Below, in pieces: positions 12,801 through 19,004 of a DNA stretch of 20,285 bases. Every line of letters starts with the position of its first letter. Position 1 is the first letter of the stretch. This DNA is from Selaginella kraussiana (Eukaryota > Streptophyta > Lycopodiopsida > Selaginellales > Selaginellaceae), in contig LDJE01105595.1 of the NCBI GenBank assembly GCA_001021135.1, positions 1 to 20,285 of the forward strand, in the 5' to 3' direction. The notes beneath the pieces are model-generated. The model had not been told where the DNA came from. It saw only the letters and a program-made list of their open reading frames with translations, and searched no databases. The position numbers and the translations under genes were made by a program.

Positions 12801-14675
12801 GACATGGAATCTCATGTTTACGAATGTGTTCATCAGGTGATCAACTTGCAATTGCTAAGGAAACGGGGCATCGTTTGGGAATGGGCACCAACATGTACCC
12901 ATCGTCGGCTCTTCTCGGAAACCACAAGGACGCAGCTCTTGCAGCTTTGCCTGTCGACGAGCTCATCGAGAAGGCGGATGGTTTCGCTGGAGTATTTCCG
13001 GGTAAGCGCAAACCCTAACCCTTAAAAGCCCTAAACCCTAAAACCAGCTTCTTACTTGTGGTTTTTTTTTTTCAGAGCATAAGTATGAGATCGTGAAGAA
13101 GCTGCAAGAGAAGAAGCACATATGTGGTATGACTGGAGATGGTGTGAACGACGCACCCGCGCTTAAGAAGGCCGATATCGGCATTGCCGTGGCGGATGCA
13201 ACTGACGCTGCCCGAAGTGCCTCCGACATCGTCCTCACCGAGCCCGGACTCAGTGTTATCATCAGTGCCGTCCTGACCAGCCGAGCTATCTTCCAGCGTA
13301 TGAAGAACTATACGGTGAGTGTTTAGATTGGTATATTTCATTAAAAACTGACGTTTTTCCTGTAATTCAGATCTACGCCGTGTCTATCACCATTCGTATT
13401 GTGGTAAGTTAATCGGAAAACTGTATATTTCTTGGGTTTTCTAAGGTGTTTTGTTGCAGCTTGGTTTTATGCTCCTGGCTTTGATCTGGAAATTCGACTT
13501 CTCTCCGTTCATGGTGCTGATCATCGCCATCTTGAACGACGGTAACCATGGTCATCTCCTTGAATGACCGCGTTGCTTACCATGGTACTTCACAGGTACT
13601 ATCATGACGATTTCGAAGGATAGGGTGAAGCCATCGCCGCTACCCGATAGCTGGAAACTCAACGAGATTTTCTCTATCGGAGTTGTTCTTGGGACGTACT
13701 TGTCTCTCGCAACCGTGGTCTTTTTCTGGCTCATTCACGACACCAGGTTCTTCGAGGTGAGGGTTAGGGTTAGGGTTTAGGTCATTCTAACATGGTTGCC
13801 CTTTTCCAGTCCCGTTTTAATGTGAGAGAACTCAAAGACAGCAGCAAGGAAATGACAGCCGCAGTCTACCTGCAAGTTAGCATTGTCAGTCAAGCTCTCA
13901 TCTTCGTAACAAGGTCGAGGGGCCTCTCCTTTCAGGAACGTCCCGGATTCCTGCTGCTTTTTGCATTCTGCGTTGCTCAGTTGGTAAGAGTTTCTGCTGG
14001 TATTTTTTGCAGTTTTTTCATCGTCTTTTTTCGTAGGTTGCCACTCTCATTGCTGTCTATGCGAACTGGAACTTTGCTAACATCAAAGGAATTGGATGGG
14101 GCTGGGCTGGAGTAATCTGGCTGTTTAGCATTGTCAATTACGTTCCTCTCGACTTCATCAAGATCGCAGTGCGCTACATCATGAGTGGAAGGGCCTGGAC
14201 GACGATGCTTGACAAGAAGGTGAACTTTAGGGTTTAGGGCTAAACTTTAGAGTTCAGGTTTTAGGGCTCAGGTTAGGGTTATGATTAGGTCTCAAATTAG
14301 ATTTATAATGTTAGGGTTGTGCTGATGATCTTGCTCCGTGCTTGTTCAGACTGCTTTTACGACTCAGAAGGACTTTGGCAAGGAGGCCCGCGAAGCTCAA
14401 TGGGCACATGCGCAAAGGACGTTGCATGGCCTTGACACAGGCGGCACATCAGCTACTCCTGACAATAGAAGCTACCGGGAGCTCTCTGAGATTGCCGAAC
14501 AAGCTAAGAGGCGTGCTGAAATCGCGAGGTACACATTTTTCCCATCTGTTAGGTTTGCTCATTGTTGGGTTTTTGCAGGTTGAGGGAACTGCACACGCTC
14601 AAGGGGCACGTTGAATCGGTGGTGCGGCTCAAAGGGCTGGACATCGATACTATTCAGCAGCACTACACCGTTTAG
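9891..14675 (+). CDS. PMA: Plasma-membrane H+-ATPase (P-type, P3A), 20 exons
   Basis: Exons: 9891-9935, 10037-10156, 10897-11133, 11238-11372, 11426-11605, 11665-11871, 11929-12048, 12100-12219, 12277-12402, 12465-12569, 12628-12772, 12837-13001, 13076-13314, 13371-13403, 13460-13541, 13596-13756, 13810-13983, 14037-14219, 14350-14528, 14579-14675. All introns are GT-AG and the frame closes at 950 aa, the usual family length. The protein exports H+ from the cytosol using ATP and energises secondary transport. TGES (183-186) is the actuator-domain motif, and the phosphorylated Asp is D330 in [14 protein letters not shown] (425-430) and TGDGVNDAP (588-596) are the nucleotide and hinge motifs. 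D686 in ILND and R657 match the proton-pathway Asp and Arg of Arabidopsis AHA2 (D684, R655). The autoinhibitory tail is complete and ends QQHYTV, with T949 the penultimate Thr that is phosphorylated to bind 14-3-3. Exon 14 is only 33 nt. Intron 2 (740 nt) is by far the longest. Confidence 0.97.
9966..10274 (+). repeat. Cluster of CGAAATTTC[C/T] motifs around exon 2 of the H+-ATPase gene
   Basis: The self-complementary core GAAATTTC, usually preceded by C and followed by C or T, occurs at 9966, 9996, 10164, 10195 and 10210. One-base-shorter versions (CGAATTTC) occur at 10027 and 10266. All lie in introns 1 and 2, close to exon 2. Five copies of an 8-mer in about 250 bp is far above chance expectation. 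Confidence 0.7.
10609..10857 (+). repeat. ATTCG-rich segment of intron 2
   Basis: ATTCG occurs eight times on the plus strand in 249 bp (starting at 10609, 10618, 10676, 10688, 10716, 10741, 10810, 10853), often as TATTCG or ATTCGTA. Random expectation is well below one. It may be a decayed tandem repeat or a splicing or transcription enhancer inside the gene's one long intron. Confidence 0.65.
12415..12440 (+). repeat. Interstitial telomere-like repeat in H+-ATPase intron 9
   Basis: About 26 bp of TTTAGGG and TTAGGG units within a 62-nt intron (12403-12464), making up over a third of it. TTTAGGG is the usual plant telomere unit. Confidence 0.85.
13011..13045 (-). repeat. Interstitial telomere-like repeat in H+-ATPase intron 12
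   Basis: AACCCTAACCC, CCCTAAACCCTAAAACC and similar units lie in a 74-nt intron (13002-13075). The G-rich strand is the minus strand, opposite to the telomere-like repeats in introns 9, 16 and 18. Confidence 0.8.
13757..13782 (+). repeat. Telomere-like repeat beginning at the 5' splice site of H+-ATPase intron 16
   Basis: The intron (13757-13809, 53 nt) starts GTGAGGGTTAGGGTTAGGG and continues with TTTAGG, so the repeat begins within the donor site itself. Confidence 0.85.
14220..14320 (+). repeat. Degenerate telomere-like repeat in H+-ATPase intron 18
   Basis: Intron 18 (14220-14349, 130 nt) contains at least six TTAGGG or near-TTAGGG units with spacers such as CTAAAC and GTTCAGG. It looks like a telomere-like array that has decayed. 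Confidence 0.7.
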
Positions 14676-15884: not shown

Positions 15885-17122
15885 ATGAGCGATCGTCAAG
15901 GTTCGTTGTAGCAAGTCACATGAATCGATTGCTTTGCGTTGCAGCTGCTCCCGGTGATGGGATTGCAGATGACGAAGAGGATCCCAACGAAGACAACAAG
16001 ACGCAGGATCATTTTATTGGCGACCAGCGGAAGAGGATCAATGGACGTCGCAATTTCCCCACAACGATGGCTGCATCCGACGACGAAGGTACTCTGATTC
16101 AGGCTAGGTCTAGTACTAGACAGTACATACGTTCATTCTCCAGGCCAGGAGCTCATGAACAAGGAATTCCTGGATGAGGAGCGCATGAACCAAGACGCTT
16201 TCTTCAGTGAGCCAAGGAAGAAACCCCAGAAGTAAGTTTCGAACAATTATTCTAGATAGAAATGTATTTAAAATACGGTATATATATCCAGGGAGGAGTC
16301 GTATGAGCTCCTGGACGAGGCGTACCAGAGGCCGTCACCGGTGGTAAGTTACCATCACTGTCTCACGAAGAGCTGATATTTTTGCAGCGGTCGGAAAAGG
16401 CTGACGAATCCGATCACCTCAGGCTGTCTGCACCGGCAGACGACGAGGCCGAGGATGGCCGCCTTCTCGGTGATGATGAAGGTTCGTATTTCAGTGCTTG
16501 GTATCAAATGGATTGAGCTTTTGCGTTGCCGCAGCTGCTACTAGCGATGACGAGAACGACGAGAACTGGCACCAGGTCTCTGGACGGCCCAGGATGAAGA
16601 AGTTCCAGAGGAAAGAATCCTCGACCGCATTTGAAGCACACATCTTCGGAAGCATCAACCAGTCGGAAGTTCGAGTACACGAGGTCGAGGAGGACCACTG
16701 CGATCGTCGGCCCGGAGGCTCCAAGAAGCTCGTAGTGGTGAACGAGTTCGAGGACTCCTGGCAAAACTGTGAGCTCCTGGACGTGACCGGCTCGAAGTAC
16801 CACGTAAGTTACCACCACATGGCACCATCGTTACCACGACGTAGCATTGCTCACTACTTTCTCCCTGGGTGCAGGATGAGAAGAAGCGGCTGAAAAAGGC
16901 CGTAAGGTCGGAGCTCAGGCTGTCGGACGACGAAGGGGAGAATGGCCTCAAGCATCACCTTTTCGGCGACCACAAAGGTTCTCGTTTTCCAGTCCTTGGT
17001 ATGCAAATGAGCTGAAATTCTGCGTTTCTTCAGCTGCTGCTGGCGTTGAGATTGTGGAGGAGGAGGGTGATGAGGAGGACGACCTCAACGAAGATGAGGA
17101 GCTCCCTGGCTCACCCGAGAAG
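15885..17122 (+). repeat. Duplicated acidic exon modules with homologous introns
   Basis: Three phase-1 introns (15901-15944, 16482-16534, 16978-17033) have the same borders: a codon base G, then GTTCG or GTTCTCG, and at the other end CAG followed by CTGCT. The second and third also share internal sequence (CTTGGTATCAAATG against CTTGGTATGCAAATG). The first and second share GATTG-GCTTT-TGCGTTG near the acceptor. Flanking exons show related peptides: LRLSAPADDEAEDG with LLGDDE, against LRLSDDEGENG with LFGDHK. This indicates internal duplication of exon-intron units. Confidence 0.7.
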
Positions 17123-19004
17123 GTTTTATAACATCTCGTTTAGTTACGTTACGTGTATTGAGTCCGAGTTTGTTCAGCTTCATACCATTCTCGTAGCAGG
17201 CCGAGGTGTTCTGGTATCTGACACTTTAGAAGTGAGGCAAAATGGTCGTCGTAACAATATCAAGAGGAACGTATCAGTTTCCAAGGTATATTTTTCATAT
17301 TCCTATAAAGATTCATATTACGATCGTGTTTTTTCAGGTGAAAACGCTCACTGGTTTCGGATTCCCAGGATGCAAAGGGAGTCTTGGTTTCTCCGGCTGG
17401 ACTTCCGATGCTCTGCGCATCCTTCAAAGGGCTCGGACCAGATGTGCTTCCTCTGACGATATGTGGAACGTCGCACGGGCTATTCGATGGAGTCTCAACC
17501 AGGAAATAGACGCACCTAATAGTAAGATCTCTGCACTATTGAGTTTTAACTTCTTTTTCAGTTGAATTTGTTGTTTTTGATGAAACAACGACGATCGTCA
17601 CTTCCAACAAATGGGTTCCATTCAAGGCGACGTAAGCAAAAGTTTTAGTGGAAATTATTAACACTCCATGTTTTACAGGAAAATTATTGCCTTGGGATCG
17701 GGAACTGAGCGAGCCAACAAGACAATTCAAAAGCGCATGGAAAAAAGACACCCGGGTATTTATCCACAAAGTTCTCAAAGTTTTTTGAAATCTAATGTCA
17801 CTGCAGAACTAGACTGGAAAAAAGAGGCTTCTACGGTACTTAAAGCAGCAGCAGCGGCATGCAAAAAAGAGCCCACTTGCGGTGGAGATTTCCTCCAAAT
17901 CGACTTTGGCGACGTCGACGAGTAAGATCATCAATGGAACTTTAACCAAACCTTGTAACCATGCAGTAAAACCGAGAAGGAGAAAATGGAGTTTTACAAG
18001 AAGCTTTGGGCCAAGATTTCCAGGAAACGCGGGCTTAAAATGGAGCTCGTGAGTACAGAAGAACTTGCAGCTATATTGAAATTGAACTCATAATTTATTG
18101 CAATTTTTGAGCCCTAATTGACTAATTGACGGCTCTATATTTTAATTTAATGTAGGGTAACCTACCCTAATTCATGGCGATCCCTAAAGCGGAGACGAGC
18201 AAGAAGGAACGGGCTCTTCATCGATTGAAATGCGGCGCACAGGGTACGTTCGTGCCTCCGAAGCAGGACCCTGCAAGCAAAGGTGAGTACCCGTACCGTA
18301 GACCCAAGCCAGAGAAGAAGGATCCATACGAGCCGCCTGAACCACCGTGTGCCGCCACGAAGTACGTATTCTCACATTGAAAGTTGTTTCCATAATATTC
18401 CATTCGCAGCCCAAAGTTGGAGGCTCGCGTGATGGAGCTGCTCACGGGGGGAGGTATCATAACTGAGAAGGTGAATGTGTACAGTAAGATCATCTTATCT
18501 GAGCACTGTCAGTATTACTACTTGATCAGGTTCCCGAGGTAGGACTTCCATGCAATTCGTGAACGTAGCTGACGAGGGTTGTTTCATGTCAGGTGGGTGG
18601 ATAACAGGGTGACCGGCGACCCGGTTCACTGGGGTGCTTACCTTCCTCCCAATGCCAATGGTTCTGAGCAAGTCTCGCTCTATTGCGAGTCCCTGACCAG
18701 CAGGAAGTTCGCAGATGGAAAGTATCAGATGCGAGTAATGTGGGAGCGTGATCACAAGCCAAGTCTGTACACCGCCTCTAGTGCATTCCTCGACTGGATT
18801 CACCCTTTCGACATGCGAATGGATAATGAAAGCGACTCGGAGTTGGAGGGACCCTTGGACGATAAGGAGCCTCCAAGGATCTGGGAGAAGAAGAAGGAGG
18901 CCAAGAGGCTTGAGAAATTAAGGAAGCTAGAGGAGGCGGAGGAAAAGAAGCAGCGCCGCAGGCGTAAGAATGGCAAGAAACCAGCAGCAGTTCCTTCTTC
19001 GTAG
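15885..19004 (+). CDS. Unknown protein: acidic duplicated N-terminus, proteasome-beta/HslV-like domain, Lys-rich C-terminus; 16 exons
   Basis: Proposed exons: 15885-15900, 15945-16088, 16144-16231, 16292-16343, 16388-16481, 16535-16803, 16875-16977, 17034-17122, 17178-17285, 17338-17521, 17562-17631, 17679-17921, 17967-18048, 18243-18361, 18410-18538, 18593-19004. All introns are GT-AG, all phases agree, and the product is 733 aa. Residues 1-285 are highly acidic with repeated modules. Residues about 287-485 resemble a proteasome beta/HslV subunit. The remainder is basic and contains a RWVDNRVTGDPVHWGAYLPP block, a DWIHPF motif and a Lys/Arg-rich helical tail with nuclear-localisation-like clusters. 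No signal peptide is seen. The start was chosen because the first intron resembles two later duplicated introns; ATG 15920 without that intron is an alternative. The junction 18048/18243 is the weakest point, and exons 14-16 could be a second gene starting at 18174. A variant donor at 18529 is also possible. I recognise no characterised family for the whole protein. Confidence 0.7.
17178..17921 (+). other. Proteasome beta/HslV-like (Ntn-hydrolase fold) domain, residues about 287-485
   Basis: This stretch of exons 9-12 reads in the order of a proteasome beta or HslV subunit. HTILVAGRGVLVSDT matches the first two strands (TTI...GVIVAAD in active subunits). IKRNVSVSKV matches the conserved Lys-x-Asn/Thr-Val-x-Lys-Val turn. 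GSLGFSGWTSDALRIL matches G-x-x-GG-x-AD-A and the following helix. IEFVVFDETTTIV and ATKIIALGSGTERANKTI match the later strands and the A-x-GSG helix start. VLKAAAAACKKEPTCGGDFL matches the final helix and the conserved SGG (here CGG, 473-475). The position of the catalytic N-terminal Thr is occupied by His287, with Thr288 at position 2, and no propeptide Gly precedes it. Catalysis therefore seems unlikely. The match was made from memory of the family, without an alignment program. Confidence 0.6.
18049..18242 (+). other. Ambiguous splice or gene boundary in the proteasome-like gene
   Basis: The frame ending at 18048 can continue in three ways. (1) A donor GTGAGT at 18049 can pair with the CAG at 18240-18242 and keep one frame into the last exons; this intron (194 nt) is much longer than its neighbours. 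(2) With no splicing the frame reads on for 14 codons (VSTEELAAILKLNS) to a TAA at 18091-18093. (3) The T-rich acceptor ending at TAG 18157 gives a short GNLP ending and a stop. An ATG at 18174 opens a coding-looking stretch (MAIPKAETSKKERALHRLKC) in frame with exon 14, so exons 14-16 could alternatively form a separate 242-aa gene (18174-18361, 18410-18538, 18593-19004). Confidence 0.5.

Follow-up and report, generated by a model that had tools for sequence, protein, structure and literature searches.

A divergent proteasome-like domain behind a large acidic region in a predicted gene of Selaginella kraussiana

A broad census of proteasome-like proteins (Fuchs, Alva and Lupas; 2020 data; PMC8665760) found 22 additional families, all confined to prokaryotes and phages, and for eukaryotes it lists solely the 20S subunits and organellar HslV. 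Does a stretch of lycophyte DNA encode a further kind, and if so, is it an enzyme? The window analyzed here comprises 20,285 nucleotides of the Selaginella kraussiana contig LDJE01105595.1, within which a sequence-only reading had proposed an apparent proteasome-beta/HslV fold in a large plant protein, with the catalytic threonine replaced by histidine and the domain consequently a possible pseudo-enzyme. That the architecture is unusual agrees with the census, and our search of the open-access literature on plants and Selaginella returned no report of such a protein. The fold and the fate of the threonine call for separate treatment.

The forward strand from 15885 to 18093 can be assembled into a 14-exon model with a predicted product of 511 aa, in which a proteasome-like domain lies between an acidic region and a short K/R-rich tail. 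Its introns are 40–71 nt each, follow the GT-AG rule throughout and, once spliced, leave a single open frame, in which the exonic coding score is +81, the alternative frames giving −58 and −129. Exons 1–8 (15885–17122) encode residues 1–285, which are 27% Asp plus Glu with a net charge of −38; exons 9–13 (17178–17921) encode the proteasome-like (HslV/PPH-type) domain recognized by profile matches (residues 286 to about 470); and exon 14 (17967–18093) adds the K/R-rich tail and the stop codon TAA, and splicing at 18049 could give a different end. Removing the four introns within the domain (52, 40, 47, and 51 nt, each GT-AG) gives one open frame bearing every motif quoted in the sequence-only reading, which was also right in setting the domain after a 285-residue acidic region and before a basic tail.

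The weak point of this model is the exon 8-to-9 join. Intron 8 (17123–17177), which connects the two halves, has a weak donor (GTTTTA), and its retention would bring a TAA stop soon after (17129–17131). Composition changes at the same place: GC3 is 0.69 in exons 1–8 and 0.47 in exons 9–14, a sharp drop between 17122 and 17178 that coincides with the domain boundary. A composite gene or alternative isoforms would account for both the donor and the break, as would two transcription units or isoforms in which a short acidic protein would end at the TAA at 17131 and the proteasome-like part would be a fragment in decay or be spliced to another 5′ exon. The neutral codon score of exons 9–13 taken alone fits this second possibility, yet it is weakened by the lack of a start codon, as neither intron 8 nor exon 9 contains an ATG. 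The exon 8–9 join is, moreover, in frame (phase 0), the five domain exons are free of stops in the chosen frame vs. 6 and 9 stops in the others, and the exon 9 acceptor requires an upstream donor, for which several in-frame ones are present. We regard this second possibility as improbable.

Three independent libraries (PHROG, NCBIfam, and Pfam) each place the same superfamily at the top for the domain. The best database match is the phage family phrog_1040 (“peptidase HslV family”; E = 3.8e-5), which covers the whole domain (domain residues 3–212), followed by two NCBIfam HslV models (E = 0.0018 and 0.0021; 18 and 17.8 bits, both below their equivalog cut-offs of 137 and 157.75 bits) and Pfam PF00227 (Proteasome; 14.4 bits, E = 0.03, under the gathering cut-off of 22.4 bits). 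Relatives gathered from phages, IMG/VR, and GTDB genomes were used for profiles of our own: 55 HslV-type proteins (domain 22.0 bits, highest score among 5,000 shuffles 10.0), 16 short-hairpin proteins (14.6 vs. 9.1 bits for the best shuffle), and the 71 combined (26.7 vs. 9.8 bits; 5,000 shuffles). Aligned to the combined profile with hhalign, the domain reached a probability of 93% (E = 2.6e-7). As a guard against splice sites chosen for their fit, all 648 unspliced six-frame ORFs of the window (at least 20 residues) were scored against the same profile; the top two were the exon-10 ORF and the exon-12/13 ORF, individually weak (E about 0.3) but on the same strand and collinear with the model. 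Other searches with the domain gave chance matches only (tblastn against phages) or found no relative (a degenerate-pattern search of viral contigs). We take the similarity to the proteasome/HslV family as real and beyond chance, pointing to a divergent proteasome-like Ntn-hydrolase domain. Profile similarity to the proteasome-like family in the sense of PMC8665760 is significant; PF00227 stayed sub-threshold, and phmmer against PDB retrieved no 20S beta or HslV chain at E ≤ 10.

This missing PDB match speaks against an ordinary 20S subunit. A divergent but otherwise ordinary subunit, 20S beta or organellar HslV, whose gene model has been drawn too long would be in line with the shared superfamily and with HslV being the nearest curated model; however, a score of 18 bits against cut-offs of 137–158 is far from HslV, and the acidic start does not look like a transit peptide. 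We consider this reading very improbable. Among known systems, the first strands look like those of the phage proteasome homolog (PPH) and the middle like HslV. With PPH the domain shares the short S1-S2 hairpin, a Thr 12 residues ahead of Asp, the xSDT/ADT motif, Lys33, GSG, and the C-terminal GG. PPH proteins, however, have about 140 aa, begin Met-Thr, lack helix H2 and are known from phages and bacteria only, whereas the plant domain has about 185 residues, lies internally in an intron-rich plant gene, and appears to retain the H1-H2 stretch, its segment from GFSG to the next strand aligning with H1-H2 of HslV. Agreement with HslV (ClpQ), the peptidase of HslUV, is best over the H1-H2, GFxG, and A(L/I)GSG blocks (22 bits), but the plant hairpin is 4 residues shorter, the TN motif near the end is missing, a 285-residue acidic extension precedes the domain, and there is no sign of organellar targeting. 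The 20S beta subunits (PF00227) share the fold family, and KEPTCGG resembles their end motif RDxxSGG, while the −1 Gly is absent and Asp166 and Ser169 are replaced in the plant domain. Connectase, an archaeal monomeric proteasome-like protein ligase, demonstrates that not all such domains are ring proteases (PMC8665760); by its description, without H1-H2 and with a two-helix insertion, it is set apart from the plant domain.

Whether the nucleophile has been lost depends on the register of the first strands. In HslV, with its long S1-S2 hairpin, Thr1 lies 16 residues ahead of the catalytic Asp; in many phage and bacterial relatives the first hairpin is shorter (MTTIAYRDGVMAADT) and the distance is 12 residues. 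The plant sequence HTILVAGRGVLVSDT matches this short-hairpin block without a gap, placing Thr288 (17184–17186) on Thr1 and Asp300, 12 residues on, upon the catalytic Asp. With Thr in register the score is +14.7 bits, with His −15.5 bits; no domain among 2,000 shuffled ones scored above 10.9. Laying HTILV over TTIVS of the long HslV hairpin is what put His287 (17181–17183), the “nucleophile position” of the sequence-only reading and position −1 in the register preferred here, at the Thr1 site (T1); this would require the hairpin to have lost 3 residues compared with HslV, and we rejected it. Structural comparison was made on a short-hairpin relative (L022), whose AlphaFold model has a pLDDT of 89.8. 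In VIA-align superpositions (Z 16–18; the aligned ranges are defined by their end points) its residue 2, a Thr, fell on residue 1 of HslV from Escherichia coli and Trypanosoma brucei and of 20S beta chains. On the strength of this alignment and of the register score, Thr288 rather than His287 probably occupies T1. Some doubt comes from the combined hhalign profile, dominated by HslV, which sets Thr288 one column late, and from HslV relatives with short N-terminal extensions, in which His at −2 with Ser or Ala at −1 is common. These extensions (L031, L090, and others, several of them planctomycete) end in WHG, FHA, THS, or YHS before Thr1.

The remaining active-site positions are largely kept. 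Asp300 (17220–17222; Asp17 equivalent), Lys321 (17283–17285, the last codon of exon 9; Lys33 equivalent), and Ser413 of the GSG motif (17698–17700; Ser129 equivalent) fall in columns that are invariant across all relatives in our alignment (A1), as are the Gly47 region and neighboring glycines; Gly341 (17395–17397), in GFSGW, corresponds to the oxyanion-hole Gly47 of GFAGS. The residues that mark the family in the sense of PMC8665760 are hence represented by Thr288, Asp300, Lys321, and Gly341, the first subject to the register. Toward the end, Glu453, Cys456, and Gly457 (KEPTCGG, 17869–17883) stand for Asp166, Ser169, and Gly170 of RDxxSGG, the first two being changed (D166E, S169C). Work on yeast and archaeal proteasomes has defined Thr1, Asp17, and Lys33 experimentally as the triad; there, Ser129 and Asp166 act as a proton shuttle, D166A abolishes self-processing, and D166N reduces activity (PMC4792962). 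The sequence shows the domain family, the proposed 14-exon model, and which residues occupy the active-site positions; activity is plausible, and a pseudo-enzyme arising through loss of the threonine is not supported, since Thr288 sits at nucleophile spacing and the Asp17, Lys33, Gly47, and Ser129 equivalents are retained.

Processing is a separate matter. The Gly(−1)-Thr1 site of 20S beta subunits, where the Gly is placed for attack in the precursors studied (PMC4792962), is absent; Leu286-His287-Thr288 takes its place whichever upstream donor is used, so that residue −1 is always His. The earlier observation that no Gly precedes the nucleophile is accordingly correct, and it argues against self-processing, but not decisively, because Gly occupies this position in only 30 of the 82 relatives (Ser in 19, Ala in 8, and otherwise the start codon). 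His at −1 occurs in none of the 82. Self-cleavage is uncertain.

Most likely, this is a threonine-type domain that has been domesticated, may be active, and carries a large acidic prodomain. Specifically, a plant nuclear gene would encode about 285 acidic residues and a highly diverged domain of the HslV/phage-homolog type that is cleaved before Thr288 and works as a threonine hydrolase or ligase, a proposal that we favor only tentatively, at somewhat less than an even chance. The alpha-beta-beta-alpha sandwich would be preserved and its first strand would carry Thr288, with Asp300 and Lys321 as the other members of the triad, Gly341 forming the oxyanion hole, and Ser413 as part of the proton shuttle. 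The acidic region would serve as a large prodomain or tether until cleavage ahead of Thr288, autocatalytic or by another protease, leaves a free Thr amino end, and the product would be a hydrolase or ligase of narrow specificity rather than a 20S subunit. Several facts weaken this proposal: His at −1 given the role of Gly(−1) in beta precursors, D166E and S169C, the weak donor and composition break between exons 8 and 9, and the restriction of propeptides to beta subunits and HslV, other relatives being without them (PMC8665760). If uncut, the same fold may act as a binding module. Such an uncleaved pseudo-enzyme or scaffold—in which the domain binds a partner and the acidic region and basic tail add contacts, as in inactive beta and alpha subunits—is a serious contender that we likewise hold to be short of probable. 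His at −1, the Glu and Cys in place of Asp166 and Ser169, and the internal position of the domain with no start codon close to Thr288 all agree with it; retention of the equivalents of Thr1, Asp17, Lys33, Gly47, and Ser129 at only 13–21% overall identity to the relatives in A1 does not. We rate the enzyme with a prodomain slightly above the uncleaved scaffold.

A bolder form of the preferred enzyme reading is that a land-plant lineage acquired a proteasome homolog of the phage/bacterium type and joined an acidic domain to it, yielding an internal threonine hydrolase or ligase freed from a 287-residue prodomain by His-Thr cleavage. We think this unlikely; if true, it would give eukaryotes their first proteasome-like enzyme encoded in the nucleus that falls outside both the 20S subunits and organellar HslV. 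A plant member with a mostly intact catalytic constellation would extend the proteasome-like family of PMC8665760 to plants, in an architecture—a large acidic N-terminal region—that is not described there, and would allow a simple test of whether such proteins are hydrolases, ligases, or binding modules. The corrected register shifts the focus to activity and the mature Thr288 end, rather than to a presumed dead enzyme.

The acidic half itself matched no family when residues 1–285 were searched against Pfam. Exons 2, 6, and 8 open with related sequence (AG|CTGCT…; 15941–15959, 16531–16549, and 17030–17048), and introns 5 and 7 resemble each other, which suggests that this half grew by internal duplication. 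Downstream, a gene at 18171–19004 encodes about 242 aa with a lysine-rich end and gave nothing significant in a Pfam search (best E 0.3). The other neighbors within the window are a pentatricopeptide-repeat gene without introns and genes for NF-YA and for a plasma-membrane H+-ATPase whose sequence ends in QQHYTV, a set consistent with land-plant DNA. Introns of the H+-ATPase gene contain telomere-like TTTAGGG/TTAGGG repeats at 13755–13785 and 14220–14283.
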